A DNA stretch of 39,223 bases from a virus: IMG/VR virus record IMGVR_UViG_3300032173_000015, positions 1 to 39,223 of that record. One strand, 5' to 3'. The notes under the pieces were generated by a model. The model was not told where the DNA came from and ran no database searches. It worked only from the letters and a program-made list of their open reading frames with translations. The translations under genes and the position numbers were made by a program. This document shows positions 4,409 through 38,122 of the stretch, piece by piece. Numbering within the stretch: position 1 is the stretch's first letter; each line of letters begins with the position of its first letter.

Positions 4409-6757
4409 TTATGCGCTAGCGGTGAAGTTGGCCCAAGTTGTTCCAGCGTCAGTATTTACATAGACGCGACTGGCAGCACCCGCAGGGTCTGATCTTAGCC
4501 ATAAAGAACCAATAGGAGCGGTTACAGCACCATTAGGATCTCCAGCACCAGCTAATACAGCTATTCCACCTGGAAGATATACACCACGGCCTGCAGTTGT
4601 GATACTTACGCCACTTGCAGCAACGACAGCTGTTCCAGCAGGAGCTTGAAGATTTAAAGCAGAACCAGCAGTTGTTGAACCAACTGTTGTTGTGTGAGCA
4701 TTTGCAGTTGTTGCAATTAACGCTCCAGCTGTTCCGCAATCAAGGTCAAGAGCTGATGCACCAGAGCCGTTACCAATAGTAATTGTTCGAACTGCTGCAC
4801 CTGTACCAATATTAATATTTTGAGCTACAGCGTCATTACCGATACTTATTACACCAGCAGATGAATTTAACTCAAGAACGCCAACAGTGTCTATTGTTGT
4901 AGCGCCTGCTGCACCTAAAACCATTGCGTCGGCCGAGTCCAAGATCAAGTCATTTGTTCCAGATTGGATTCTTGTCATAGAGGCGCCAATCATAGAACCA
5001 ATGGTTGTATCATGGGCAGTAGCATTTGCACCGAATTGCATAACGCCTGTTCCGCCATTAACTACAACACTTGTTGCGTCTGTAGCGTTACCAATTGTAA
5101 CTGTACGAGCTGCGGCGCCTGTACCAATATTAATGTTTTGGGCTACTGCATCGTTACCAATTCCAATTACACCAGCACTTGAATTAAGCTCTAATACACC
5201 AGCAGAATCAATAAGAACTGTGTCTGCTGAAGTTACTGTAAAGTCACCTGTTCCTGTAGTTACTATATCAACACCACCTGTTCCTGAATTTATATCTATT
5301 GCTGTAGCGCCTATTATGTTACCGATTGCAATTGTACGAGCGGCACCGCCTGTACCAATATTCATATTTTGGGCTACTGCGTCATTACCAATACTAATTA
5401 TGCCTGCTGATGAGTTTAATTCTAATACACCAGCAGCATCAATAAGAACTGTGTCTGCTGAAGTTACAACAACATCACCTGTTCCAGTTGTATTAACAGC
5501 TACGCCACCTGTTCCTGAGTTAAGTGTTACTGTGGAAGTTCCTGAGACGTTACCTATTGTAATATTACGTTGGGCCGCACCAGTACCTATATTCATATCT
5601 TGAGCGACAGCGTCGTTACCAATTCCAATTACGCCAGCGCTAGAATTGAGCTCTAAGACTCCAGCTGAATCAATAAGAACTGTGTCTGCTGAGGTTACAA
5701 CAACGTCACCAGCGCCAGTTGTATTGACAGCAAAGCCCGAAGTTCCTGTGTTGACCGTTACGCCTGTTGCACCCGTTACGTTACCGATTGTGATTGGAAT
5801 TGCATGTGCTGCTGTACCAACGTTTATTGAACCAGCGCCTGCTGTACCAGCATTTACAACGACGGAAGTTGCACCAGTATTGTTACCAACTGTAATAGTT
5901 TTTGCAAAAGCATCTGTACCAACGTTTATAGCACCTGTTCCTGAAGTAAGAGCTATAGCGCTATTTGTTGTTGCGCCTGTTATACCACCAGCACCTGTTA
6001 TTATAACTTGTCCTGCAGCATTTGAAGCCGTTAATGTAATTGCTGTTGCAGAAGCTTCTGTAGCTATGGCATGTATAGAACCACCAGTTGTTGTAACGTC
6101 AAGATCTTCTCCAGCGCCAACAACATTTATAGCAGAAGTAAGAACACCATCAAGTTGAAATCCACCAGAAGAAGCTAATATATTTACAGCAGCATTATTT
6201 GCTAAACCTGCCGACTCTATTCTTACGCCACCAACATCAGAAAGAACATAAACTGAATCTAAGCCCGTTCCTTGATCTGAACGAATGTCTATTGACTCGG
6301 CAACTCCCCCGTTTGCGTGTAAATATATAGCTGGAGAAGCATTAACAGTAGAAGCTATAGCTACAGCTGCTGCAGCTGTAATATCAAAATCACCTGTAAC
6401 AGTAGCATCGCCAACAACGTCTAAATTTCCATTTATTACAGTATTGCCACCAATAGCAACATCACCTTGCAAATCAGAATCAGCTACAACTGTAAGAGTA
6501 TCGCCAATTGCACCTGTTACGGTAACAGCAGCAAATACTCCAGCACCTGTTGCTTGAGCTTGCCAATTTGTTGCTCCAGCTGCTGTTGAAGTAGCTATAT
6601 AATAAGCATTTGTATTTTTATTTACCCACAAAGTACCAAGCTCAGCTAAGTCAGCTACTCCTGGGTTACGAGTGGATATTATTGGCTGAGGGGATAACTC
6701 CTGTAAGGCATTGGTTAAGCCATAAGCGACTTTCGGCCTTGATCTATCAATAGGCAT
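4409..6757 (-). CDS. Long repetitive fibre/appendage protein (782 aa)
   Basis: The largest protein of the window, 782 residues, almost entirely repetitive. The repeat unit contains TSADTVLIDSAGVLELNSSA, IGNDAVAQNMNIGTGAA, RTITIGN and NSGTGGVAVNTTGTGD; four copies are clear. The N-terminus (MPIDRSRPKVAYGLTNALQE, then LGTLWVNKNTNAYYIATS) is non-repetitive, resembles the start of the 36968-38122 fibre and may attach to the virion. The C-terminus (PIGSLWLRSDPAG...YVNTDAGTTWANF) is a second non-repetitive cap. The start is set by TTTAGGAGAAAAT. It is the first fibre gene of the cluster, transcribed away from the plus-strand cassette at 6898-8027. A long beta-helical fibre is inferred. Confidence 0.8.
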   Translation of the reverse strand: MPIDRSRPKVAYGLTNALQELSPQPIISTRNPGVADLAELGTLWVNKNTNAYYIATSTAAGATNWQAQATGAGVFAAVTVTGAIGDTLTVVADSDLQGDVAIGGNTVINGNLDVVGDATVTGDFDITAAAAVAIASTVNASPAIYLHANGGVAESIDIRSDQGTGLDSVYVLSDVGGVRIESAGLANNAAVNILASSGGFQLDGVLTSAINVVGAGEDLDVTTTGGSIHAIATEASATAITLTASNAAGQVIITGAGGITGATTNSAIALTSGTGAINVGTDAFAKTITVGNNTGATSVVVNAGTAGAGSINVGTAAHAIPITIGNVTGATGVTVNTGTSGFAVNTTGAGDVVVTSADTVLIDSAGVLELNSSAGVIGIGNDAVAQDMNIGTGAAQRNITIGNVSGTSTVTLNSGTGGVAVNTTGTGDVVVTSADTVLIDAAGVLELNSSAGIISIGNDAVAQNMNIGTGGAARTIAIGNIIGATAIDINSGTGGVDIVTTGTGDFTVTSADTVLIDSAGVLELNSSAGVIGIGNDAVAQNINIGTGAAARTVTIGNATDATSVVVNGGTGVMQFGANATAHDTTIGSMIGASMTRIQSGTNDLILDSADAMVLGAAGATTIDTVGVLELNSSAGVISIGNDAVAQNINIGTGAAVRTITIGNGSGASALDLDCGTAGALIATTANAHTTTVGSTTAGSALNLQAPAGTAVVAASGVSITTAGRGVYLPGGIAVLAGAGDPNGAVTAPIGSLWLRSDPAGAASRVYVNTDAGTTWANFTASA
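4800..5700 (-). repeat. Coding tandem repeats, 231-nt period
   Basis: Within the 782-aa fibre the equivalent motif GCTACxGCxTCxTTACC (plus-strand reading; gcgac in the last copy) starts at 4824, 5142, 5373 and 5604. The last two spacings are exactly 231 nt (77 codons); the first is 318 nt (106 codons). The copies differ mostly at synonymous or conservative positions. Confidence 0.85.
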
Positions 6758-6833
6758 ATTTTCTCCTAAAATGTTAAAAATTATTATCTTCTAGTAAATA
6801 GCTAAACACATACAAAAAAGAAAAAGAAATTGT

Positions 6834-6862
6834 TTGACTTTATTTTAATATTTTTATATATT
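6834..6862 (+). promoter_or_regulatory. Sigma70-type promoter of the plus-strand cassette
   Basis: TTGACT at 6834-6839, a 17-base spacer and TATATT at 6857-6862, in a very AT-rich stretch upstream of the small regulator gene at 6898. It faces away from the 4409-6757 fibre gene and is the only recognisable promoter for the 6898-8027 genes. Confidence 0.6.
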
Positions 6863-6897
6863 TATATATATGAAAACACTTGAAATAAAGGAAAAAC

Positions 6898-7062
6898 ATG
6901 GAAGAGAAAAAAGATAAGTATGGAGTAGGGTTGTATATAACAATACCTGAAGACGTAAAGATTCTTATAAAAACAAGCGCGAGCGTCAAGAATATAACAA
7001 TAAAAAAGTGGATTTTAAGGGCAATAATGAAGCAGATAGAGAAAGAAAAAACGTTCGATTAA
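6898..7062 (+). CDS. Ribbon-helix-helix-like small DNA-binding protein (54 aa)
   Basis: A short reading frame, ATG at 6898 to TAA at 7060-7062, behind AAAGGAAAAAC. The 54-residue product starts MEEKKDKYGVGLYITIPEDV. The pattern fits the ribbon-helix-helix (Arc/MetJ) fold: a short strand (residues 10-16, VGLYITI), helix A after the IPEDV turn (17-29) and helix B (34-50, ending in basic residues). Such proteins dimerise through the strand, which enters the major groove. It is the first gene of a four-gene plus-strand cassette with its own promoter, so it may autoregulate that cassette or act on host promoters. The fold is called from pattern only, without a profile search. Confidence 0.65.
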   Translation: MEEKKDKYGVGLYITIPEDVKILIKTSASVKNITIKKWILRAIMKQIEKEKTFD

Positions 7063-7083
7063 CCATTTTTTAAGGAGTTCCAT

Positions 7084-7383
7084 ATGAAAAAGACATTATT
7101 ATTATTACTTATAAGCGTAAATTGTTTTGGCTACAAAGGCTGGGCGCCCGCGTATCGTGAGGTACAGGTAAGAGACGAGAGAGATCACTACAATGAAAAA
7201 GAAAACAGGAGATTAAGGGAAGAGAACGAGAGGCTACAAAGAAGAAATGAAACAACTGAAAGAGTTGTTTATATAAGGCCAACCCCATCAGATAGATTCG
7301 AACTTTTAACTGAAGGCGATAAAATTACACTCAAATACGTTTTAGTTGGTATACTATTAGCATGGTTAATCTTCAGAAAATAG
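7084..7383 (+). CDS. Secreted coiled-coil protein with C-terminal membrane anchor (99 aa)
   Basis: A 99-residue protein. It has a signal peptide (MKKTLLLLLISVNCFG, plausible signal peptidase I cut after NCFG), then a charged heptad-rich coiled coil (about 30-63, RDERDHYNEKENRRLREENE), and a hydrophobic C-terminal segment (VLVGILLAWLIF, 86-97) ending in RK. A periplasmic coiled coil held by a C-terminal membrane span resembles spanin-type lysis proteins, although the N-terminal cysteine lacks a proper lipobox (Asn before Cys). The ribosome site is AAGGAG. It lies 21 nt after the ribbon-helix-helix gene and 11 nt before another secreted protein. A lysis role is inference. Confidence 0.65.
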   Translation: MKKTLLLLLISVNCFGYKGWAPAYREVQVRDERDHYNEKENRRLREENERLQRRNETTERVVYIRPTPSDRFELLTEGDKITLKYVLVGILLAWLIFRK

Positions 7384-7394
7384 TGAGGTGATCT

Positions 7395-7778
7395 ATGAAA
7401 AAGCTCGTCCTATTAATTCTTATACCTATGTCATGTTACGGCAATACGCCAATAAAAGAAGGCTTTCTCAGAAGAGTTCTTGTATGCCTATGCCCATGTT
7501 TCAAGAAAACACCTAAACATGAAATAAGATCTTCGATGAGAAGAGTTGCAAATAGTGACAATCTGAAGGGCATGATTGTTATGCCAAAAGAAGAAGATTT
7601 CATAATGAAAGTTGACAGAAGTAACCCAATCACAGAAGGCATGAAGAACTACATGGAAATAGAAAAGATGATGATACAGGGGATACAAGAGAAGATTGTG
7701 GAGACTGAAAAGAAGATAGAAAATAATATTGAAAGATTAAAAAACAGAGATACTCGAGTATCTCTGTTGAATGAATGA
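7395..7778 (+). CDS. Secreted protein with Cys cluster and coiled coil (127 aa)
   Basis: A 127-residue protein whose signal peptide (MKKLVLLILIPMSCYG) has the same Cys-aromatic-Gly ending as that of its upstream neighbour, suggesting related leaders. A cysteine cluster follows (VCLCPCF, about residues 31-37), then a basic stretch, and a C-terminal helical region (about 80-120, IQEKIVETEKKIENNIERL) likely to form a coiled coil. GTGAGGTGATCT precedes the ATG. The export signal means it acts in the envelope. No family recognised; it could pair with the 7084-7383 product or with the membrane protein that follows. Confidence 0.6.
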   Translation: MKKLVLLILIPMSCYGNTPIKEGFLRRVLVCLCPCFKKTPKHEIRSSMRRVANSDNLKGMIVMPKEEDFIMKVDRSNPITEGMKNYMEIEKMMIQGIQEKIVETEKKIENNIERLKNRDTRVSLLNE

Positions 7779-7793
7779 ATTGAAGGAAAACGA

Positions 7794-8027
7794 ATGGAAT
7801 TAGATAAAAAATCTGCTTTCGCAGTAATATTAATCTTATTTTTGATAGCCCAAGGGTACAATATCTTATCTTATCTCATATCAAGTATTCCAGGGTTTTT
7901 ATTAGCATTGCTTCTTATAGTTATGACTATAGTTAAATGGCTCATACCTATTGTACCATTTATTATTATTGGTCTGTTTTTACATGCAATAATTACAAGC
8001 GCAATAGTTAATAGTAGAAAAGATTAA
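7794..8027 (+). CDS. Small multi-span membrane protein, holin-like (77 aa)
   Basis: A 77-residue, mostly hydrophobic protein. Three membrane spans can be drawn (about 9-28, 31-48 and 50-70), with a charged N-terminus (MELDKKS) and C-terminus (NSRKD). Size and topology suit a small holin, but no holin family signature can be named. It is the last gene of the plus-strand cassette, 15 nt after the secreted protein. Its stop shares the palindrome TTAA (8024-8027) with the stop of the convergent ejection-protein gene, leaving no space for a separate terminator. Holin is a positional guess. Confidence 0.6.
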   Translation: MELDKKSAFAVILILFLIAQGYNILSYLISSIPGFLLALLLIVMTIVKWLIPIVPFIIIGLFLHAIITSAIVNSRKD

Positions 8028-9211
8028 CCCAAAGATTTTATCTTATAGGCGCCCTTTTCTTTTTCTGGACTAAATTTGTTAGCCTCTTCATCAAATATGT
8101 TCATGTTTTTAAGCGCTGTTGCGGCATTTCCAGCTGCGCTGGCCTTCATAACATTTGCGTAAGCCTGACGAGCTATGTTTGATTTACCTAGAAGACTAAA
8201 TAAGTTATATCCAGCAGCAGGTATAACTTTAGCAGCTCCCATCGAACCCAAAAACAAACTTCTAGTCAATGAATTAGACTTACTAAAATTAAAATTGGTT
8301 TTATTTTGAACAAACTTTCCAATTTTAGAAGATGCATTTAAGCCATTATCAACATCACTCCACGGTAAATAATATTTACCAAACTCAAGATTCTCTTTTT
8401 TAGCAAACTCATGATGAGCTTTTTTAAGGCCATCCCTTAAAGATTCAATAGTTTTTACAGATTTTTTTGGAAATTCGCCTGCTCTGAGTTTATCAGTAAG
8501 AACTTCTTCAAGGGCAACTGACTTCTTTATATTCAAATAATTAGGCCCAGACATTGAATTTTCAAGCCTCTCAACCTCGTCAAGAATAGCAGATTTCCAT
8601 GGAACTTTATGTTCATATCCATATTCTGCCACTTTTTTAGCTTTACTGATCAAGGGATCTAAAGAAGTTGTTCTATATTTTTCCATTGGACGTATTGTTT
8701 TATCGAAGCCCTCTTTTAAGATTTCTTGATTTTTTACTAATGCTTTTCTGGTTCCTGGTATACCAGCAAGAAGATTAAATCCAATTTTTGAGGCAACTTG
8801 ACCGCCTTTTCCAAAACCAACCTCTTTTGCCATTAAAGAGGCAACATTACCACCAACTGCCCTAACAACGGCTCCCTTAAAAGGCAACTTTCCCTTAATT
8901 GGCAACATAAAAGTAGCCAAATCTGATGCAACTTCATCAGAAAACTCTTCACCTTTACCTTTTGGTTCTAGATATTGACCAGTTAATGGCTTAGTTACTT
9001 TTTCTCTTATTTCACCAGAAGTTGGCAATGGTCTTGGCATATTTTCATTAAATTCTGGAACGACTCCTATATCAGATGCGAACTGCATAACATCGCCAGG
9101 TAGGCCAACAACCGATTCGGCGCCACGAGCAACTGATCTCGCAACGTGTCTAGCGCCCGCTCCAAGCCACGATTCTTCTGGCTCAGATATTTGTTTTATC
9201 TTGTATGCCAT
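8024..9211 (-). CDS. Putative DNA ejection/internal virion protein (395 aa)
   Basis: A 395-residue protein starting MAYKIKQISEPEESWLGAGA behind AAGGATAAAT. The N-terminal part carries an amphipathic stretch (RHVARSVARGAESVVGLPGD) and the rest is helical, Lys-rich, with hydrophobic patches (GSMGAAKVIPAAGYNLFSLL). It is the last of three genes after the tail hub, the place of the P22 ejection proteins gp7, gp20 and gp16. Such proteins leave the head and form a conduit for DNA through the cell envelope. Sequence similarity to P22 proteins is not evident to me; the assignment rests on position, size and composition. Confidence 0.6.
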   Translation of the reverse strand: MAYKIKQISEPEESWLGAGARHVARSVARGAESVVGLPGDVMQFASDIGVVPEFNENMPRPLPTSGEIREKVTKPLTGQYLEPKGKGEEFSDEVASDLATFMLPIKGKLPFKGAVVRAVGGNVASLMAKEVGFGKGGQVASKIGFNLLAGIPGTRKALVKNQEILKEGFDKTIRPMEKYRTTSLDPLISKAKKVAEYGYEHKVPWKSAILDEVERLENSMSGPNYLNIKKSVALEEVLTDKLRAGEFPKKSVKTIESLRDGLKKAHHEFAKKENLEFGKYYLPWSDVDNGLNASSKIGKFVQNKTNFNFSKSNSLTRSLFLGSMGAAKVIPAAGYNLFSLLGKSNIARQAYANVMKASAAGNAATALKNMNIFDEEANKFSPEKEKGAYKIKSLG

Positions 9212-11293: not shown

Positions 11294-11812
11294 ATGGCTC
11301 AAAATGATACGGGTCTATTTTTACCCACTACTAATATTTGGGATGTGTTACCCGATGACGCAGATTTCATAACAGTTGATATCTTTAAAGAGTTACTTGT
11401 AAGATTACAGCAAAACATGGGTAATACTTCTAAGGCAGTGGACTTAAAAGATACTGGATATTACACACAAACAGAATTCGTTAATGGGCAATCTTTTTTC
11501 CCAGATCCAACTCTTGCTCCAGACGATGCTAATTATTTGACCTACAGGCAAGTTTACAGGAAGGCTATTGATTTTGGAACACTTCCAAATAATGGAACAA
11601 AAAGCGTTGCACACGGATTAGCTGTAACTAACGCATGGAGTTTTACGCGGATATATGCAACGGCGTCAAATCCAACAGGTTTACTTTATTTCCCAATACC
11701 AACCACAGGAACAACAATCACTGTAGACGCTACAAATGTAAATATAACTACAACTGCAAATATGACAGCTTATACCAAATGCTACTGCGTACTTGAATTC
11801 CTAAAACAATAG
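11294..11812 (+). CDS. Structural-type protein on the opposite strand (172 aa)
   Basis: A 172-residue protein, MAQNDTGLFLPTTNIWDVLP..., behind AGAAAGGAATTTA. The N-terminal 60 residues are helical (FKELLVRLQQNMGNTSKAVD). The C-terminal part holds the motif NNGTKSVAHGLAVTNAWSFT and then ...ITVDATNVNITT...YCVLEF, a small beta domain that I know from many phage appendage proteins (a hydrophobic-Pro/Ala-His-Gly start and an Asn-rich strand). Although surrounded by minus-strand virion genes, it stands alone on the plus strand with its own upstream region and terminator. Likely a virion accessory or host-contact protein; exact role unknown. Confidence 0.7.
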   Translation: MAQNDTGLFLPTTNIWDVLPDDADFITVDIFKELLVRLQQNMGNTSKAVDLKDTGYYTQTEFVNGQSFFPDPTLAPDDANYLTYRQVYRKAIDFGTLPNNGTKSVAHGLAVTNAWSFTRIYATASNPTGLLYFPIPTTGTTITVDATNVNITTTANMTAYTKCYCVLEFLKQ

Positions 11813-11905: not shown

Positions 11906-14089
11906 TTACTGCAATCTTGAAGCAGTAGGAGTAGTATAGAAAGTCATAGCATGCATTTGAAAATCTTCAAAAGCAATTGTTGAGTTAGTTATCTGGGCAT
12001 CATTCATAGTTATCTGTAATTGAACCGATTCCCCTTCGGCCATAGGATATACCGGATGCCATAATTGTGTCATAAATTCTTCCATTGGAATAAACGAATA
12101 AGGAAACGTTTCCAATATTCCAACCATTCCAGGAAGAACATCTGGCTGAGCTTCTGTAGTAATATTATATCCAGAAGCAGAGCCAATAAAGCAATTAACT
12201 GTCACTTGGCCATTAACAGTAGAGTCTACATAGAAGTCTACTTTTGAGATATAAGCATTTCGGCCCTTATCGACATAAAAGTTATATTCTTTTGTAACAA
12301 TATCTATATTAGATACTCTGGCAACGGTACCTGCGCCAAGATAAGTTCCGGTTGAAGATGGTTCATATACTCTTATGGTGTTTTGGTCTATTGTAACAAC
12401 TTCATATATCTTGTCGTTAAGTTGAGGTATACCAACTACGTTTTGAATATATATGTATTGATCACCACTTAAGCTGTGATTGATTATTGTTAATTCCATC
12501 CAACCAACTATGACAGATGGGACTATATTAGTTATTTGCAGAACGCTAGCGTTCATGGCTTGATCGGGAGCAATTCTAAAAGTGAAACCCTCTTGATTTC
12601 CACAAAGCACTTCTTTGTATAGTAATTCATTTTGACCGCTGTTCCATGGAGCAAGACTTTCACCCCATGTACTTGTCCAAGACGCCCATGTTAAATTAGA
12701 TTGTGGTTGATAGTATCCAAAAGCTGTAATACCATCTTCAAATTGTGCCCATGTACCATTCAGGTAATTATATACCAGCATCATGTTTGGATAAGTCTTA
12801 GAAACTTGATCTGGAAAAGCCCAATAAGCAAGTTGCATAAAATAATCACGTATACCACAAACCCTATAGATACCCTCATTTTGATTTGATATTTGGAATA
12901 CTTCGTCTGGTATCTTTTGGTCTATACGATCTACGTTTGATCCATTACAAGCATGTATACCATTTGATCCAATTCCCAAAACAACTTTATCAAAAGGTAC
13001 CGCAGAAAAAGTAGATTCAGCACCAAGTTCAGAGTTAAGCCTTTGCCAAACAAATGGTAACACTTGGTTTTGAGTATATGATAATTCCCAGGTACTTTTC
13101 TCAAAATAAACAATAAGCCTATCTTTTACGAATCCACAACTTACTATTTGCTCTTTTGTTGGTGCATCAAGAAAACCGCCTTTGCCAGGGATATCTTCAC
13201 GCCATGCATTAACATCTGCAGATATAAGTGGTGTACCATTTTGAGAGAATCTGCATCTGTTTCCAAATTGTGACGTTGTAGCGCCTGTTTTTTCCCAAGT
13301 GTTTAAACAAATCAATCTATCTTTAAAAGCCACTATAATAACAGCTGACTCTAAAGTTGTACCACCAGTGTTTACTTGCGGTTTCATGGTTGTCCAAACA
13401 ATACTATTCCAATACTTTATACCGTCAGCTGGAGTCGAATTAACCACAAAAAGAATGTAATCTTGCGCGTCTACACCACGCCAATTTGTAGCCCAGAAAA
13501 AGCTAGAATCAGTTCCTGTCCATACGGCTGCGCCTATTCTTTGCCAACTTGAACCATTATATTGGTACGCAAACTGTTGGTCAAAAGCTATTGTTGGGTC
13601 ATTTGCAAGACTCACGTCTATATATTGAGTTATACCCATAACAGGTGTTGACGGATAGAAATAAACAATAGAGTTGGGATTAAAATTATTTCCCGTGATC
13701 GCTAGTGCGCCAGTAGCAGTATTATAAGTTGCATCAGAAATAGAAGTTGTATATGTATCGCCATTAACTTGATACGCAGTAAATACCCAATCATCAACAG
13801 AAAACATTTGGCCTGGTTTCCAAATAGTTCCTGGCATAATAGCATTAAAATTTCCCGTTATAGCAGCCGTTGTTCCAACATTAATTCTTAAACGAGTATA
13901 ATTTTGCTGATATTTTTGATCAACAAGAGTATTCATTACTAAAGAACCCGTTCTTTTTCGGACACGTCCACGGAAAACATAAGCATTAAGCAACTTACTG
14001 AAAGCATCTTCGGGCAATAACCAACTTCTTGTATCTCCCTGCTGACCTGAATTAATCGGTGCAATCATAAACCTATCAATATTTGCCAT
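11906..14089 (-). CDS. Tail hub / stabilisation protein, P22 gp10-like (727 aa)
   Basis: A 727-residue protein, MANIDRFMIAPINSGQQGDT, then PEDAFSKLLNAYVFRGRVRK, a beginning typical of short-tailed phage hub proteins: an N-terminal segment describing the product of the neck interface, followed by many Trp/Tyr/Asn-rich beta repeats (for example FFWATNWRGVDAQDYILFVV, KDRLICLNTWEK). P22 gp10 forms a beta-propeller-like hexamer that plugs the portal-gp4 complex and carries the tail needle and spikes; the size and place after the connector genes match that role. The ribosome site is AGGAAACTAAT. The assignment rests on length, position and general pattern. Confidence 0.7.
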   Translation of the reverse strand: MANIDRFMIAPINSGQQGDTRSWLLPEDAFSKLLNAYVFRGRVRKRTGSLVMNTLVDQKYQQNYTRLRINVGTTAAITGNFNAIMPGTIWKPGQMFSVDDWVFTAYQVNGDTYTTSISDATYNTATGALAITGNNFNPNSIVYFYPSTPVMGITQYIDVSLANDPTIAFDQQFAYQYNGSSWQRIGAAVWTGTDSSFFWATNWRGVDAQDYILFVVNSTPADGIKYWNSIVWTTMKPQVNTGGTTLESAVIIVAFKDRLICLNTWEKTGATTSQFGNRCRFSQNGTPLISADVNAWREDIPGKGGFLDAPTKEQIVSCGFVKDRLIVYFEKSTWELSYTQNQVLPFVWQRLNSELGAESTFSAVPFDKVVLGIGSNGIHACNGSNVDRIDQKIPDEVFQISNQNEGIYRVCGIRDYFMQLAYWAFPDQVSKTYPNMMLVYNYLNGTWAQFEDGITAFGYYQPQSNLTWASWTSTWGESLAPWNSGQNELLYKEVLCGNQEGFTFRIAPDQAMNASVLQITNIVPSVIVGWMELTIINHSLSGDQYIYIQNVVGIPQLNDKIYEVVTIDQNTIRVYEPSSTGTYLGAGTVARVSNIDIVTKEYNFYVDKGRNAYISKVDFYVDSTVNGQVTVNCFIGSASGYNITTEAQPDVLPGMVGILETFPYSFIPMEEFMTQLWHPVYPMAEGESVQLQITMNDAQITNSTIAFEDFQMHAMTFYTTPTASRLQ

Positions 14090-17699: not shown

Positions 17700-18644
17700 T
17701 TATAGCGTGCAACGCAAGTTTAGTACCCATAAATCGTTCAATATACGCGGCACTTCGGCGAACTTGTAGCCAACACTTGCATTTAATGCGAGTGGACCAT
17801 CATAAATAGGTGGCCTATAAATGAAAGATGCGCTATAACCATCTTGTTCGATACATGCATAAGCTTCCATGCCGACACAGAAGATATTATACACTGTTCT
17901 TCCAAGCATTGATCCTACAGGTTGTGTTGAACCAATAGATGAGATCAAGAATCTCAAGTTTCCAGCAGATCCCCACTCAGAACGCAATGCATTCATAGGA
18001 GATGGGTAGTCATTCTTTTGATGGAATCCGTTAATTCCGTCTAAACGGCTAGATAAATCTGTGTGACAAAGAGCAAAGTATGCATCCCTTATAGGAGCTG
18101 TACCAAACTTGTCGTCACCTTCGATGTTATCAAGAATTGTATAGGCGTTACTTCCCAAAAGTGAACGTACGATATCGTCGATATCTGCACGTGTTATTTC
18201 TGTTGGATTGTCGCCGTTTACACCAGCTACGCAGTTAATGAAAGCTGCGGTTCCTGCGAGCATGTCACGAGTGAGTTGATCCTCTGTTTGACGAAGAGAA
18301 ACTCCCAAACGCGCTGCTGCTTCATTTAAAACTGGATCCTGATTTTGAAGTGTGCATTGCTCGTTCAAAATCACATAAGTTCCGTAGAAAGAGATGCGTG
18401 CATCGATATCAACAGCAGTTAGCGTCTGCGCAGGTGGCGTTACACCGGTGTTTCCTAGTGGCACCATAGCTGTTTGTAATGGATTATATCTTCTCATGCG
18501 AAGTGTATTACCACCATTACGTGGCATTTTCTTCAACACTGCAGGTATCTTATGAATCATATTAGGCACTGGCACCGACAATAATTTATAAGAAAAACTT
18601 TGCTGCACTGGTGAAGGAAGTATTGTTGTAGTAGTTATTGGCAT
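17700..18644 (-). CDS. Major capsid protein, N4-gp56 family (314 aa)
   Basis: A 314-residue protein with the hallmark run of the N4-gp56 capsid family: NTLRMRRYNPLQTAMVPLG, then GVTPPAQTLTAVDIDARISF, GTYVILNEQCTLQNQDPVLN, EAAARLGVSLRQTEDQLTRD and MLAGTAAF (together about residues 46-135), and the later RDAYFALCHTDLSSRLDGIN stretch. It forms the icosahedral HK97-fold shell. TTTAAGGAAAAAA precedes the ATG. The gene follows the scaffold and the M15 peptidase gene, and is preceded by a 366-base leader with its own probable promoter and three hairpins, suggesting strong separate expression. Slightly shorter than many family members. Confidence 0.88.
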   Translation of the reverse strand: MPITTTTILPSPVQQSFSYKLLSVPVPNMIHKIPAVLKKMPRNGGNTLRMRRYNPLQTAMVPLGNTGVTPPAQTLTAVDIDARISFYGTYVILNEQCTLQNQDPVLNEAAARLGVSLRQTEDQLTRDMLAGTAAFINCVAGVNGDNPTEITRADIDDIVRSLLGSNAYTILDNIEGDDKFGTAPIRDAYFALCHTDLSSRLDGINGFHQKNDYPSPMNALRSEWGSAGNLRFLISSIGSTQPVGSMLGRTVYNIFCVGMEAYACIEQDGYSASFIYRPPIYDGPLALNASVGYKFAEVPRILNDLWVLNLRCTL

Positions 18645-19010: not shown

Positions 19011-19361
19011 TTAAACTCTCAAGTCTTGCATCTCAAAATGATTGCCGTCTGGGCGAGATTTAAAATCACCCCCGTGCCTGTTTGATGGATGCAATTTCTT
19101 CCAATACTCACCAAAAGGCCTATAATCTTCGCTATCTGGGAAGTATTTTCCATCTGCTGAAAACAAATTTATGTCTATAGCCAGTCTTTTACAATGGAGA
19201 CTGTTTAATATGCCTTTACCCTCTTTTGCATAAATTGCAGCTTGAGCTGGCGTTCTATAAACTTCACCAAGAGTACAAACATAACCAGATTGGAAGATAT
19301 GCTCAATTAATTTTGCCACATTACGGGCAAATATTGCCTGTTCTTGTGCTAATGATTTCAT
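19011..19361 (-). CDS. Endolysin, M15-family L-Ala-D-Glu/D-Ala-D-Ala peptidase (116 aa)
   Basis: A compact 116-residue zinc peptidase of the M15 family. Zinc ligands and active-site pattern are visible: SLHCKRLAIDINLF gives His56 and Asp63, and GGDFKSRPDGNHFEM gives His108 with Glu110, with the usual WKKL...GGDF context. An early VYRTPAQAAIYAKEGKG segment matches the family's R-T-x2-Q-A feature. T5- and A500-type endolysins with this fold cut peptide cross-links of peptidoglycan. There is no signal peptide, so release needs a holin or envelope helpers. It overlaps the scaffold stop by 1 nt and precedes the capsid gene, an unusual place for a lysis gene, so a virion-associated role is possible. 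Confidence 0.85.
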   Translation of the reverse strand: MKSLAQEQAIFARNVAKLIEHIFQSGYVCTLGEVYRTPAQAAIYAKEGKGILNSLHCKRLAIDINLFSADGKYFPDSEDYRPFGEYWKKLHPSNRHGGDFKSRPDGNHFEMQDLRV

Positions 19362-21172: not shown

Positions 21173-21189
21173 TTATCTCCTTTATGGCC

Positions 21190-21261
21190 CGCAAGAATTG
21201 GGACTCGAACCCAAATCTGCCGTCCTAAGTGACAACCTTCTACCAATTGAACTATTCTTGC
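21190..21261 (-). tRNA. tRNA gene with a non-canonical anticodon arm
   Basis: On the minus strand: a perfect 7-bp acceptor stem (GCAAGAA/TTCTTGC), T8-A9, D arm GTTC-AATTGGTA-GAA, and a perfect T arm TTGGG-TTCGAGT-CCCAA. CCA is not encoded. The anticodon arm GTTGTC-ACTTAG-GACGGC folds as 6 bp with a 6-base loop, or 5 bp with an 8-base loop (CACTTAGG), not as 5 bp with 7 bases. A forced 7-base loop CTTAGGA would give anticodon UAG (Leu CUA), at the cost of an A-C mismatch and a 3-base variable loop. The amino acid is therefore uncertain. It lies in the gap before the 162-aa head gene. Confidence 0.7.
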
Positions 21262-21305
21262 GGCACCTCATGAATGAATCTTTTTTAAATATGCTACAGA
21301 TTTAT

Positions 21306-26394: not shown

Positions 26395-27759
26395 TCAATA
26401 ATGTGTTGGTTCATCGCTAAAAAATCCAGAACCCCTATTTGTTCCGTACATCGCTTCGTTATATCTTTTATCTATCTCCTCTGGAGAAGCACCATCTCTA
26501 ACTTTAGCCAAAGATACGCATAGATAGCGCATGCTGTCGGCATAATGGCTAGACCAGTTATGAAGAGGTTGTGTCTTATATACGCGTTTTTTTATATCAA
26601 ACTCCTGGCGATAATTCTCCAAAGCTTTGAGTAAATTCTTGCAGTTAATCTCATCAACCCATATTTTACTAAAAGCAGAACGAACTGACTCAATACCATC
26701 CATGATCGACATATCATTAGATATTGTAAATGTAACACCTAGTTGGCGCGCTTTTTCCCATCTAGTAATACCCGTACCAAGTTCGCGCACTTTTATATCG
26801 TGTGGTGCGATATGTTTGCCATATAAAAAAGGTTTAGACTCAAGTACTTTTATGTAGTGTTCAAGCCCCTCTTTTTGATTCTCATAGCAGTCTATTATAC
26901 GAACTGTTTGTCCAATAACCTGAAAAAAGATGATCGTTGTTGAATCCCTCATACCCAGATCCCACGCAGTATGAACTTTGAACCCGTTCTCCCATGGAAC
27001 TTGTCCAATCTGACCACTAAGTCTCATTCGATCTAGATACTTCGAATAATAAGATCCTTCAACACCCATCTCGAAGCTGCAATAATATTCTTGTTGTATT
27101 AAATCGTCACTCATGAGACCTTCGGCCTTCTCTTTCTCTATTTCATGAAGTGATATGTGATGAGTATCTTCAACAGAAAGTTTATAAGCAAACCAATCAT
27201 CAGAGTTCTGAGCTATGTTGTATAACTCCCATAAGTGATTCTTGCCCCGTGGAGTTGATATGAATAGCGCAGTTCCATCATTTGCAGTTAGAATTGGACG
27301 TAGATACTGATAGGCACGTGGATCTTGGAGAGCATACTCTGAAAATATACATAAAGAAGGGTTTGTTCCAACAAGGCCATCATAGTTATCAGAACCAACA
27401 ATCTGCAAAAGACTGCCATTAACAAAACGAATTTTCATCTCTTGGGAGTTCTTGGCTTCAATAAGTTCATCAGGGATAAAATCTAGAATACGTTTGCCGT
27501 CATTGGTGATGGAATCCCATAAGATCTTACGGCCTTGACTGTAAGTTGGAAATATATAATAGACAACACAAACGCGTTTGATGCATGTTCTAATTGCAAG
27601 TAGAAAAGCTGTCATGTCTTTACCAGCCCGTCTGGGTAATATTGCAACCACTCGACGGTAGCCTTCGTTCTCTATCGCATCAATGATTGGCTGCTGGTAT
27701 GATCTAAGTTGTAACCGGTCAAGTTTTATCTGTGTCTCTACTTTTACGTCCACGTTCAT
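26395..27759 (-). CDS. terL: Terminase large subunit (454 aa)
   Basis: The 454-residue packaging motor. The N-terminal ATPase is recognisable from an adenine-binding LRSYQ motif (18-22), the Walker A motif ILPRRAGKD (40-48) and a Walker B-like LCIFSEYA. The C-terminal nuclease shows acidic residues in HTAWDLGMRDSTTIIFF, in APHDIKVRELG and in HYADSMRYLC, as in RNase H-fold terminases (Terminase_6-type). It cuts concatemers and pumps DNA into the portal. Start at AGGAAACATG. Its beginning overlaps a small membrane-protein gene (27719-27874) by 41 bases in another frame. The predicted headful-type motor agrees with a circularly permuted map. Confidence 0.9.
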   Translation of the reverse strand: MNVDVKVETQIKLDRLQLRSYQQPIIDAIENEGYRRVVAILPRRAGKDMTAFLLAIRTCIKRVCVVYYIFPTYSQGRKILWDSITNDGKRILDFIPDELIEAKNSQEMKIRFVNGSLLQIVGSDNYDGLVGTNPSLCIFSEYALQDPRAYQYLRPILTANDGTALFISTPRGKNHLWELYNIAQNSDDWFAYKLSVEDTHHISLHEIEKEKAEGLMSDDLIQQEYYCSFEMGVEGSYYSKYLDRMRLSGQIGQVPWENGFKVHTAWDLGMRDSTTIIFFQVIGQTVRIIDCYENQKEGLEHYIKVLESKPFLYGKHIAPHDIKVRELGTGITRWEKARQLGVTFTISNDMSIMDGIESVRSAFSKIWVDEINCKNLLKALENYRQEFDIKKRVYKTQPLHNWSSHYADSMRYLCVSLAKVRDGASPEEIDKRYNEAMYGTNRGSGFFSDEPTHY

Positions 27760-27874
27760 GTTTCCTATGGTTGTCTTCTTTTTTCATTCCCCACCAAGTA
27801 AGTATTATTAGAACGATCATACAAATCGAGTTAATTAAGCCATTAAAGTCGTTGAGTATGTCGTTAACATCCAT
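27719..27874 (-). CDS. Small membrane protein overlapping terL (51 aa)
   Basis: A 51-residue frame: MDVNDILNDFNGLINSICMI, VLIILTWWGM and a basic tail (KKEDNHRKHERGRK). One membrane span (about 12-29) is likely. The ATG shares bases with the stop of the zinc-ribbon gene (TGATG) and AAGGGAA lies seven bases before it; the frame runs 41 bases into the terminase gene. The tight coupling and good ribosome site make it credible. Function unknown; small single-span proteins with a basic tail beside terminases can be holin-like. Confidence 0.6.
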   Translation of the reverse strand: MDVNDILNDFNGLINSICMIVLIILTWWGMKKEDNHRKHERGRKSRDTDKT

Positions 27875-28098
27875 CAAGTTCCCTTTTTATTCATCAATGC
27901 AAAGCATCGAGCACAATATGCCACCATCTTCTTGCCTCGTATCTCAACATAAGCAGTCTCTAAACTACCACATTTACTACAAACAATCTTTTTCCCATTT
28001 ATGATAGTTTCGCTTGTTGATTTAGTATACGTTTTTTGCATCAAAAATGGGCTTAAAGAGAAGAATAAGATCAAGGCAAATAGAATGTGTGCGATCAT
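27874..28098 (-). CDS. Membrane-anchored zinc-ribbon protein (74 aa)
   Basis: A 74-residue protein: N-terminal hydrophobic span (HILFALILFFSLSPFLM, about 4-20), then a zinc ribbon with two CxxC pairs, VCSKCGS and YCARCFA, about 20 residues apart. It could bind a nucleic acid or a partner protein near the membrane. The ribosome site is weak (CGAAAG, 8 bases upstream). It begins a short run of overlapping small genes ending in terL. Family not recognised. Confidence 0.65.
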   Translation of the reverse strand: MIAHILFALILFFSLSPFLMQKTYTKSTSETIINGKKIVCSKCGSLETAYVEIRGKKMVAYCARCFALMNKKGT

Positions 28099-36967: not shown

Positions 36968-38122
36968 TTATAAACTTGCTAAAAGCGCCCCAGCAAAAGC
37001 TGTTTGTGTGCCACCACCAACACCCATTGTTTTTGCTGCTCCAGCGCCATATGTAGCATTAACAGTATAATAAACAGTGTCTCCTGCATTCAATCTTATA
37101 ATATAAGTATCTTCATTCATATGATGCCCGGCATCATCCGCTACCCATCCCAGATTAGACCTAAGTATAGCCCCACCAGGAACATAGGCAGCACCAGGAC
37201 ATTCAAGATAAGTATCGCCAAAATTCACTGTTCCTAATGCGCTACCGCTAAATAAGGTAACAGAAGCTGTAAACATGTATATACCATTGACTGGAGCTGT
37301 GAATAAATTCGTTCCAGTGTTATAGCATGCACCAATATTAAAAATAACTGTATCAAATAGAATCTTATAATGCGTATCATCTCCCGTAACATTATTAACT
37401 AAACCAGCTAGATATACTGAAAACGAATAATCTCTAGCTCCTAAAGGTACTACGGGAATCGCTGGAACAGTAATAGTCACAGTATTTCCTGCGCCAGTAG
37501 TCACTGCGCTTCCAGCTCCAAGAACATTTAATACATTAGCAGCAGGCACCGCATTGCCTGCATTTGTTGTATATGTAGTTAATGCTGATGCTCCTGCACC
37601 ATCTATGGTTACAGTGCTACCAAAACCAGTTGTTGTGATACCATTAACGCCATGTATATAAATCTGTCCGGCACCAGCTGGCAAGACGTCAACAAAATCA
37701 TCTGAGATTAACTTCTCTACAAAAGTTCCACCACCAGATGAATCAAATTCTAATCGATTCGCTCCAGGGTTTCCAGTAATCGTAAGATTTCCAATATTGG
37801 AAGTCAGTTGTATATTCTGATTAACATCACCATGAACATGGGCACCAATATCACCAGAAAGCGACATTAATCCACCAATAAATGGAACCCATGATGCAAC
37901 GTTACCAGCAACGCTTGTAAGCATGTACACATCACCGTTTCCAGGAAATACCGGTGGAGTTAATAATCTTCCAGAGCTATCTATCCAGATATCACCAACA
38001 CAGAATGACAAGTAATCGTTTACAGTTGGCCTTCTGGGGTGCATTACTAAATTTGGAGGAGTGCTCGGCCTCACGCCCCTGTAGGCGAGAGTATTTGCTC
38101 CTGTAAGACCTCTATCAGACAT
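36968..38122 (-). CDS. Tail fibre with C1q-like C-terminal domain (384 aa)
   Basis: A 384-residue fibre-type protein. The N-terminus (MSDRGLTGANTLAYRGVRPS, then LSFCVGDIWIDSSGRLLTPP) resembles the start of the 4409-6757 fibre and may attach to the virion. A Gly/Thr-rich shaft follows (about 95-230, including GNAVPAANVLNVLGAGSAVT). The last 150 residues (ARDYSFSVYLAGLVNNVTGD, NLFTAPVNGIYMFTASVTLF, ... LNAGDTVYYTVNA) have the C1q/TNF-like jelly-roll pattern, in which F-x-A-P-V-x-G-x-Y-x-F is the key motif. Such trimeric tips bind receptors. CAAGGAGAATAAT precedes the ATG. Confidence 0.82.
   Translation of the reverse strand: MSDRGLTGANTLAYRGVRPSTPPNLVMHPRRPTVNDYLSFCVGDIWIDSSGRLLTPPVFPGNGDVYMLTSVAGNVASWVPFIGGLMSLSGDIGAHVHGDVNQNIQLTSNIGNLTITGNPGANRLEFDSSGGGTFVEKLISDDFVDVLPAGAGQIYIHGVNGITTTGFGSTVTIDGAGASALTTYTTNAGNAVPAANVLNVLGAGSAVTTGAGNTVTITVPAIPVVPLGARDYSFSVYLAGLVNNVTGDDTHYKILFDTVIFNIGACYNTGTNLFTAPVNGIYMFTASVTLFSGSALGTVNFGDTYLECPGAAYVPGGAILRSNLGWVADDAGHHMNEDTYIIRLNAGDTVYYTVNATYGAGAAKTMGVGGGTQTAFAGALLASL

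Follow-up and report, generated by a model that had tools for sequence, protein, structure and literature searches.

Which role is played by four short genes that face against the virion genes surrounding them in the late region of a phage genome? The question is raised by IMG/VR record IMGVR_UViG_3300032173_000015, of which positions 1-39,223 were analysed; the window, as used below, is this whole virus record of 39,223 nt. It encodes a P22-like portal (Pfam P22_portal, 7.9e-77), and a terminase, a major head protein and an ERF recombinase were also recognised. Its late region lies mostly on the minus strand and includes a tRNA-Leu gene. When sequenced genomes were searched with the portal, one weak match was returned and no host was found. 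The features discussed here are listed in Table 1.

Table 1. Positions in the window of the cassette, its control elements and the other genes mentioned in the text
Feature	Position	Strand	Remarks
Tail-fibre gene	4409-6757	-	Divergent from the RHH gene; N-terminal domain conserved in relatives; body repetitive
Sigma-70-type promoter match	6834-6862	+	TTGACT-17-TATATT; 10/12 consensus bases
Imperfect AT-rich palindrome	6851-6876		Candidate RHH operator; overlaps the -10 box; best inverted repeat of the region, weak alone
RHH	6898-7062	+	54 aa; Arc/Mnt-like, putative autoregulator (AF2, Foldseek, hhalign, PHROG)
S1	7084-7383	+	99 aa; signal-peptide-like start, charged coiled-coil-like stretch, C-terminal hydrophobic span
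S2	7395-7778	+	127 aa; signal-peptide-like start, long C-terminal helix
26-bp perfect palindrome and adjoining minus-strand T-run	7743-7768	-	Predicted terminator of the late operon, inside the end of the S2 frame
Three-span membrane protein	7794-8027	+	77 aa; conserved last position of the cassette
Virion gene convergent with the cassette	8024-9211	-	In the place of the last P22 ejection gene, by position only
172-aa gene	11294-11812	+	Conserved; either orientation among relatives
Tail gene	11906-14089		Anchor and query in the family comparison
Major head gene	17700-18644		Highly conserved
M15 endolysin	19011-19361		In the late operon, 11 kb from the cassette
tRNA-Leu gene	21189-21262	-	In the late region
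52-aa protein	27719-27877	-	One hydrophobic span, basic tail; overlaps the terminase gene; alternative holin candidate
Tail-fibre-like protein	36968-38122	-	C1q domain (Pfam 1.1e-10)

A plus-strand cassette within the minus-strand late genes

The four plus-strand ORFs of the cassette are separated by intergenic gaps of only 11-21 nt, and each is preceded by a Shine-Dalgarno-like sequence (AAAGGA, AAGGAG, GAGGTGAT and AAGGA, in this order). Codon log-odds, obtained with the phage's own core genes as training set, were positive for all four (0.175, 0.155, 0.145 and 0.054) and negative (-0.11 to -0.24) for the four antisense ORFs tested. By codon usage, the genes predicted to oppose the surrounding late genes score as coding, and the cassette is real, beyond what chance would give. 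At its far end, the stop of the 77-aa gene overlaps by 4 nt the stop of the convergent minus-strand virion gene, for which few relatives were found (3 loci).

A promoter had been predicted in front of the first ORF, and the sigma-70-type match found there departs from the consensus at two bases. In this AT-rich DNA, matches of such quality turn up about as often as expected by chance (10 found, 10.3 expected). Among the relatives described below, 17 of 44 loci have TTGAC at a distance of 30-110 nt in front of the RHH start, compared with 2.5 +/- 1.6 in shuffles. Since a single match is common by chance, it is this enrichment in the family that gives weight to the promoter of the window. On the opposite strand, the palindrome at the end of the S2 frame scores as a terminator for minus-strand transcripts (-14.3 kcal/mol, z -5.4), and late-direction terminators were present in 18/47 slots versus 6/94 shuffles. 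With this predicted terminator in place, late transcription would probably end within the slot. A simple scan of the gap between the RHH and tail-fibre genes saw no consensus promoter in the tail-fibre direction.

The view of the cassette as a self-contained antiparallel unit, and one that is probably self-regulated, is supported.

The first gene encodes an Arc/Mnt-like ribbon-helix-helix protein

The first product had been assigned to the ribbon-helix-helix (RHH) proteins, and this was borne out by structure prediction. The AF2 model, built from the RHH family alignment (pLDDT 89), has a strand-helix-helix fold like that of Arc, and its best PDB matches in Foldseek are structures of P22 Arc. 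In hhalign the RHH was matched to P22 Mnt with 5.8e-5 and to Arc with 1.2e-3 (each a single comparison), and its PHROG match is an Arc-like repressor (4e-4). By profile and modelled fold, the window RHH is therefore Arc/Mnt-like. The statement that none of the four products belongs to a nameable family does not hold for this one; it does hold for S1, S2 and the 77-aa protein, for which no homologue was detected.

Arc is the nearest solved fold and has nearly the same length (53 versus 54 aa), with ~19% identity; unlike the gene of the window RHH, arc lies on the other strand, ahead of ant. The strand contact residues of the window RHH are G, Y and T, and differ from those of Arc (Q, N and R).

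The candidate operator of the window is AT-rich and weak. Analogous palindromes are present upstream of the RHH genes of relatives, where inverted repeats score above shuffles. By inspection, the residues of the RHH strand fall into triplet classes that go with particular palindromes: R-A/S-D with TGTACA, R-I-D with TGTATA, R-N-E/Q with TGATAA and Q-A-D with CTAACATGTTAG. In a permutation test run with the -35 box masked, equal strand triplets corresponded to similar promoter sequences (0/1000 permutations), and the correspondence persisted when RHH identity outside the strand was limited to 33% or less (9/1000). Shared ancestry could contribute to this co-variation and, given the restricted test, is unlikely to be its whole cause. 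Because the DNA-contact residues of the RHH co-vary with its own promoter sequence, autoregulation is well supported on comparative sequence grounds. The family further offers naturally occurring RHH-operator pairs in which shifts in DNA specificity can be studied.

Two putatively exported proteins and a small membrane protein

S1 begins MKKTLLLLLISVNCFGY and S2 begins MKKLVLLILIPMSCYGN. These starts are signal-peptide-like and the leader ends match (C-F/Y-G), as had been noticed from the sequence; neither protein fits a lipobox when examined by eye. The AF2 model of S2, made without an alignment, contains a helix at 78-126, the remainder being of low confidence. Hydropathy places three hydrophobic spans in the 77-aa ORF, in keeping with the multi-span membrane protein that had been proposed. 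These features point to export of S1 and S2 and to membrane insertion of the 77-aa protein. Profile searches with S1 gave no family match, no relatives of S1 or S2 were found, and for the 77-aa protein no homologue was detected beyond a marginal TM-helix match. Viral contigs were also searched directly for homologues of these three proteins and of the downstream gene, and nothing useful was returned.

A constant frame with changing cargo in related phages

Relatives were gathered with the portal, the tail gene and the N-terminal part of the tail fibre as queries, that is, without use of the RHH or of the cassette, and were then surveyed with HMMs of the tail-fibre N-terminal domain and of the RHH. 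The tail gene was taken as anchor because the RHH and tail-fibre N-terminal alignments are too divergent for pattern scans. The late gene order of the window is common to 14 near-full-length relatives.

In each of the 60 loci that show the slot (54/54 when redundancy is removed), the RHH gene is antiparallel to the tail-fibre gene and divergent from it; no locus with a visible slot was without the pair. Seven entries scored as having no pair are halves of split genomes; they carry secondary tail-fibre domains, and the main one is found in the respective other half. From RHH start to tail-fibre start the distance is mostly 80-150 bp, and usually ~120 bp. At the other end of the slot, where its genes meet the preceding virion gene tail-to-tail, the last gene encodes a tiny TM protein in 34/47 slots; dinucleotide shuffles gave 1.9 +/- 1.4, and the opposite strand 6/47. 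No terminal TM ORF was detected in 13/47 slots, and the RHH is kept even there. Several terminal TM genes stop exactly 4 nt into the convergent gene, like that of the window. Related TM families recur across phages, and phages with similar virion genes next to the slot tend to have the same TM type (1/2000 permutations), an association that may be plain linkage. In related pairs of terminal TM genes, fewer changes are seen at codon position 2 (0.26) than at position 3 (0.45), which gives modest support to the terminal TM genes being real.

Between the RHH and the last gene the cargo is variable, and consists of HNH endonucleases, zinc-binding, HTH or exported proteins, or of almost nothing. 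One cargo gene of ~96 aa, with the motif GNIDYSxIPEL...WKL, recurs in several slots that otherwise differ (L170, L186, L089, L105 and G013). The comparison of gene content in related phages, suggested as a check by the original prediction, thus revealed a conserved frame in which the RHH comes first and a tiny membrane protein comes last, with unrelated genes in between. In the window as in its relatives, this variable gene set lies in the late region just before the tail-fibre gene.

Other parts of these genomes vary as well. The 172-aa gene shares the strand of the tail gene in 55 loci and opposes it in 23, the latter being the arrangement of the window, where no inverted repeat flanking this gene was found. 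In relative G002, GroEL-like and GroES-like proteins are encoded between the endolysin and major head genes (contig positions 10290-12186, L093). The major head gene is split, with intervening sequence, in relatives G001, G003, G004, G005, G008, G009 and G014. Some of the interruptions carry homing-endonuclease-like ORFs, and the interrupted head genes of these seven relatives suggest introns.

Function of the cassette

The explanation that we favour, and to which we give about an even chance, is that the cassette is this family's version of the P22-like ant moron/immI slot, that is, an independently expressed operon, autoregulated by its RHH, with exchangeable cargo and SieA-like exclusion. 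Host RNA polymerase would start plus-strand transcription early, at the promoter in front of the RHH gene; an Arc/Mnt-like RHH dimer would then bind the palindrome overlapping its own promoter and limit expression, a step supported by the co-variation. The opposing late transcript would be halted within the slot by the predicted terminator. The genes after the RHH would be exchangeable cargo, the last of them usually a tiny inner-membrane protein. In the window this membrane protein, with the exported S1 and S2, may alter the envelope of the infected cell, and the altered envelope may keep a second, related phage from delivering its DNA, as P22 SieA does. The RHH may also influence late transcription reaching the tail-fibre gene, as the P22 literature would lead one to expect. 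Envelope exclusion of rival phages in the manner of SieA is, by this analogy, what we infer to be the most likely function, and the slot makes it simple to find unannotated membrane proteins of phages, dozens of them, that may prevent infection by rivals.

SieA acts in a prophage setting, and a prophage role is uncertain for the cassette, because no tyrosine integrase (PF00589) was found in the window or in its 36 relatives (37 genomes; controls 14/14 positive), in a search covering the tyrosine type only. The original prediction had considered a lysogenic-conversion-type cargo; a moron or cargo in the wider sense fits the locus, and for the same reason strict lysogenic conversion is open to doubt.

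Alternatively, what is conserved could be the RHH as a regulator of tail-fibre or late expression, with a mixed cargo of host-takeover or anti-defence genes, membrane proteins included, that have no single role in common. The RHH is universal and the cargo is not, several slots holding the RHH and little else, and late-direction terminators lie inside the slot; the HNH nucleases, HTH and zinc proteins would suit a mixed cargo. However, that small TM genes are enriched at a single, fixed place argues for a shared role, and no clear tail-fibre-direction promoter was seen in the simple scan, so that we regard this explanation as rather unlikely.

SieA-like exclusion could also be taken further, to a scenario that we hold tentatively and consider unlikely as a whole. 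Here an uncultured and apparently non-integrating podovirus lineage would possess, throughout, a universal, autorepressed exclusion slot, in which fast-diversifying mini membrane proteins, made early after entry and matched to the genes at the ejection position, sort relatives into mutual-exclusion types; S1, S2 and the 77-aa protein would form a new three-part envelope exclusion system. If this were true, exclusion types among the relatives would resemble the sorting of prophages by immunity.

The cassette had also been proposed as a self-regulated lysis module, with the 77-aa protein as holin and S1 and S2 as spanin-like or envelope-disrupting partners. The three-span topology does resemble that of a class I holin, the two exported proteins have helical stretches, and an M15_4 endolysin was recognised in only 8/37 genomes, so many relatives are without recognised lysis genes. 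The window, however, has its recognisable M15 endolysin in the late operon, and M15 genes related to it were found in about 25 loci of relatives. The cassette opposes this operon and has a host-type, putatively autoregulated promoter. No lipobox was seen by eye in S1 or S2, no cargo gene matched any lysis family, and other small TM candidates exist, such as the 52-aa protein encoded beside the terminase. A holin next to an endolysin and/or spanins is not what the cassette presents. Because the endolysin sits elsewhere and the cassette is opposed to the late operon, a lysis module is improbable and was set aside. A toxin-antitoxin or addiction unit, with the RHH as antitoxin and a small membrane or exported protein as toxin, is highly improbable: family RHHs match antitoxin-type Pfam models (HicB 17, ParD 11 and CopG 4 of 52 members), but the RHH stops right after its second helix with no obvious toxin-neutralising tail, the gene adjoining it is not conserved as in a type II system, several slots hold an RHH with little or no cargo, and no toxin family was matched in the cargo.

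Comparison with the P22-like ant moron and with SieA

The parallel with P22 does not figure in the original prediction. In P22 the gene order is 16> <sieA <orf59a <mnt, arc> ant> 9>. Sixteen P22-like genomes underlie the description of the ant moron as a variable insertion; Villafane et al. (PMC2629481) use the term for a variable region with no role in morphogenesis or lysis that possibly affects the tailspike level, and the same P22-like region was reported to be very variable (PMC8022706). The slot of the window has the same place and order: a variable antiparallel gene set just before the tailspike or tail-fibre gene, an RHH (Mnt in P22) first and divergent from it, and a 3-TM gene (sieA in P22) last, tail-to-tail with gene 16 in P22. 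The genes preceding the slot have the place and number of P22 genes 7-20-16, with profile matches absent: gp16, gp20 and gp7 gave none to the convergent virion gene or to neighbouring genes, and homology of the neighbouring genes to gp7, gp20, gp16, gp10, gp4 and gp26 was looked for and not found.

The window thus differs from P22 in having neighbours not recognisably homologous to gp7/gp20/gp16, and also in being without arc, ant, sar, a sieA homologue and a tyrosine integrase. No ORFs for arc or ant occur in 6757-8027, and the locus is not immI proper; phage L and ST64T are likewise without arc and ant (PMC8022706 and the ST64T genome). The RHH is universal in the family of the window (54/54), whereas it is sporadic in the P22-like ant moron. 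ST64T and ST160 have a Mnt-like RHH alone, divergent from tailspike gene 9 with a 135-bp gap, and phage L likewise has a mnt-only ant moron. In ST160, an unannotated ORF with a hydrophobic span and a coiled coil is convergent with gene 16; this ORF (L214:4319-4864, minus strand) ends 18 nt from gene 16, in the sieA position. By contrast with the window, ST64T, ST160 and phage L are temperate phages of Salmonella with int and c2, and their cargo is unrelated. Mnt also has a C-terminal extension (82-83 aa, compared to 54 aa for the window RHH).

SieA, which sits in the inner membrane with three TM spans, prevents gp16/gp20 from delivering DNA (PMC10883804). Like SieA, the membrane protein of the window has three predicted spans (by hydropathy) and is encoded by the last slot gene, beside the ejection-gene position; it differs in length (77 aa, versus 162-164 aa for SieA), SieA has its own promoter, and no sequence similarity between the two proteins was found.

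Taken together, the layout of the cassette matches that of the P22-like ant moron/immI slot, without arc, ant, sieA homology or a tyrosine integrase. That this P22 geometry recurs in over 50 distant phages from metagenomes, the RHH being constant and the far end usually occupied by a small membrane protein, suggests that the architecture is functional.
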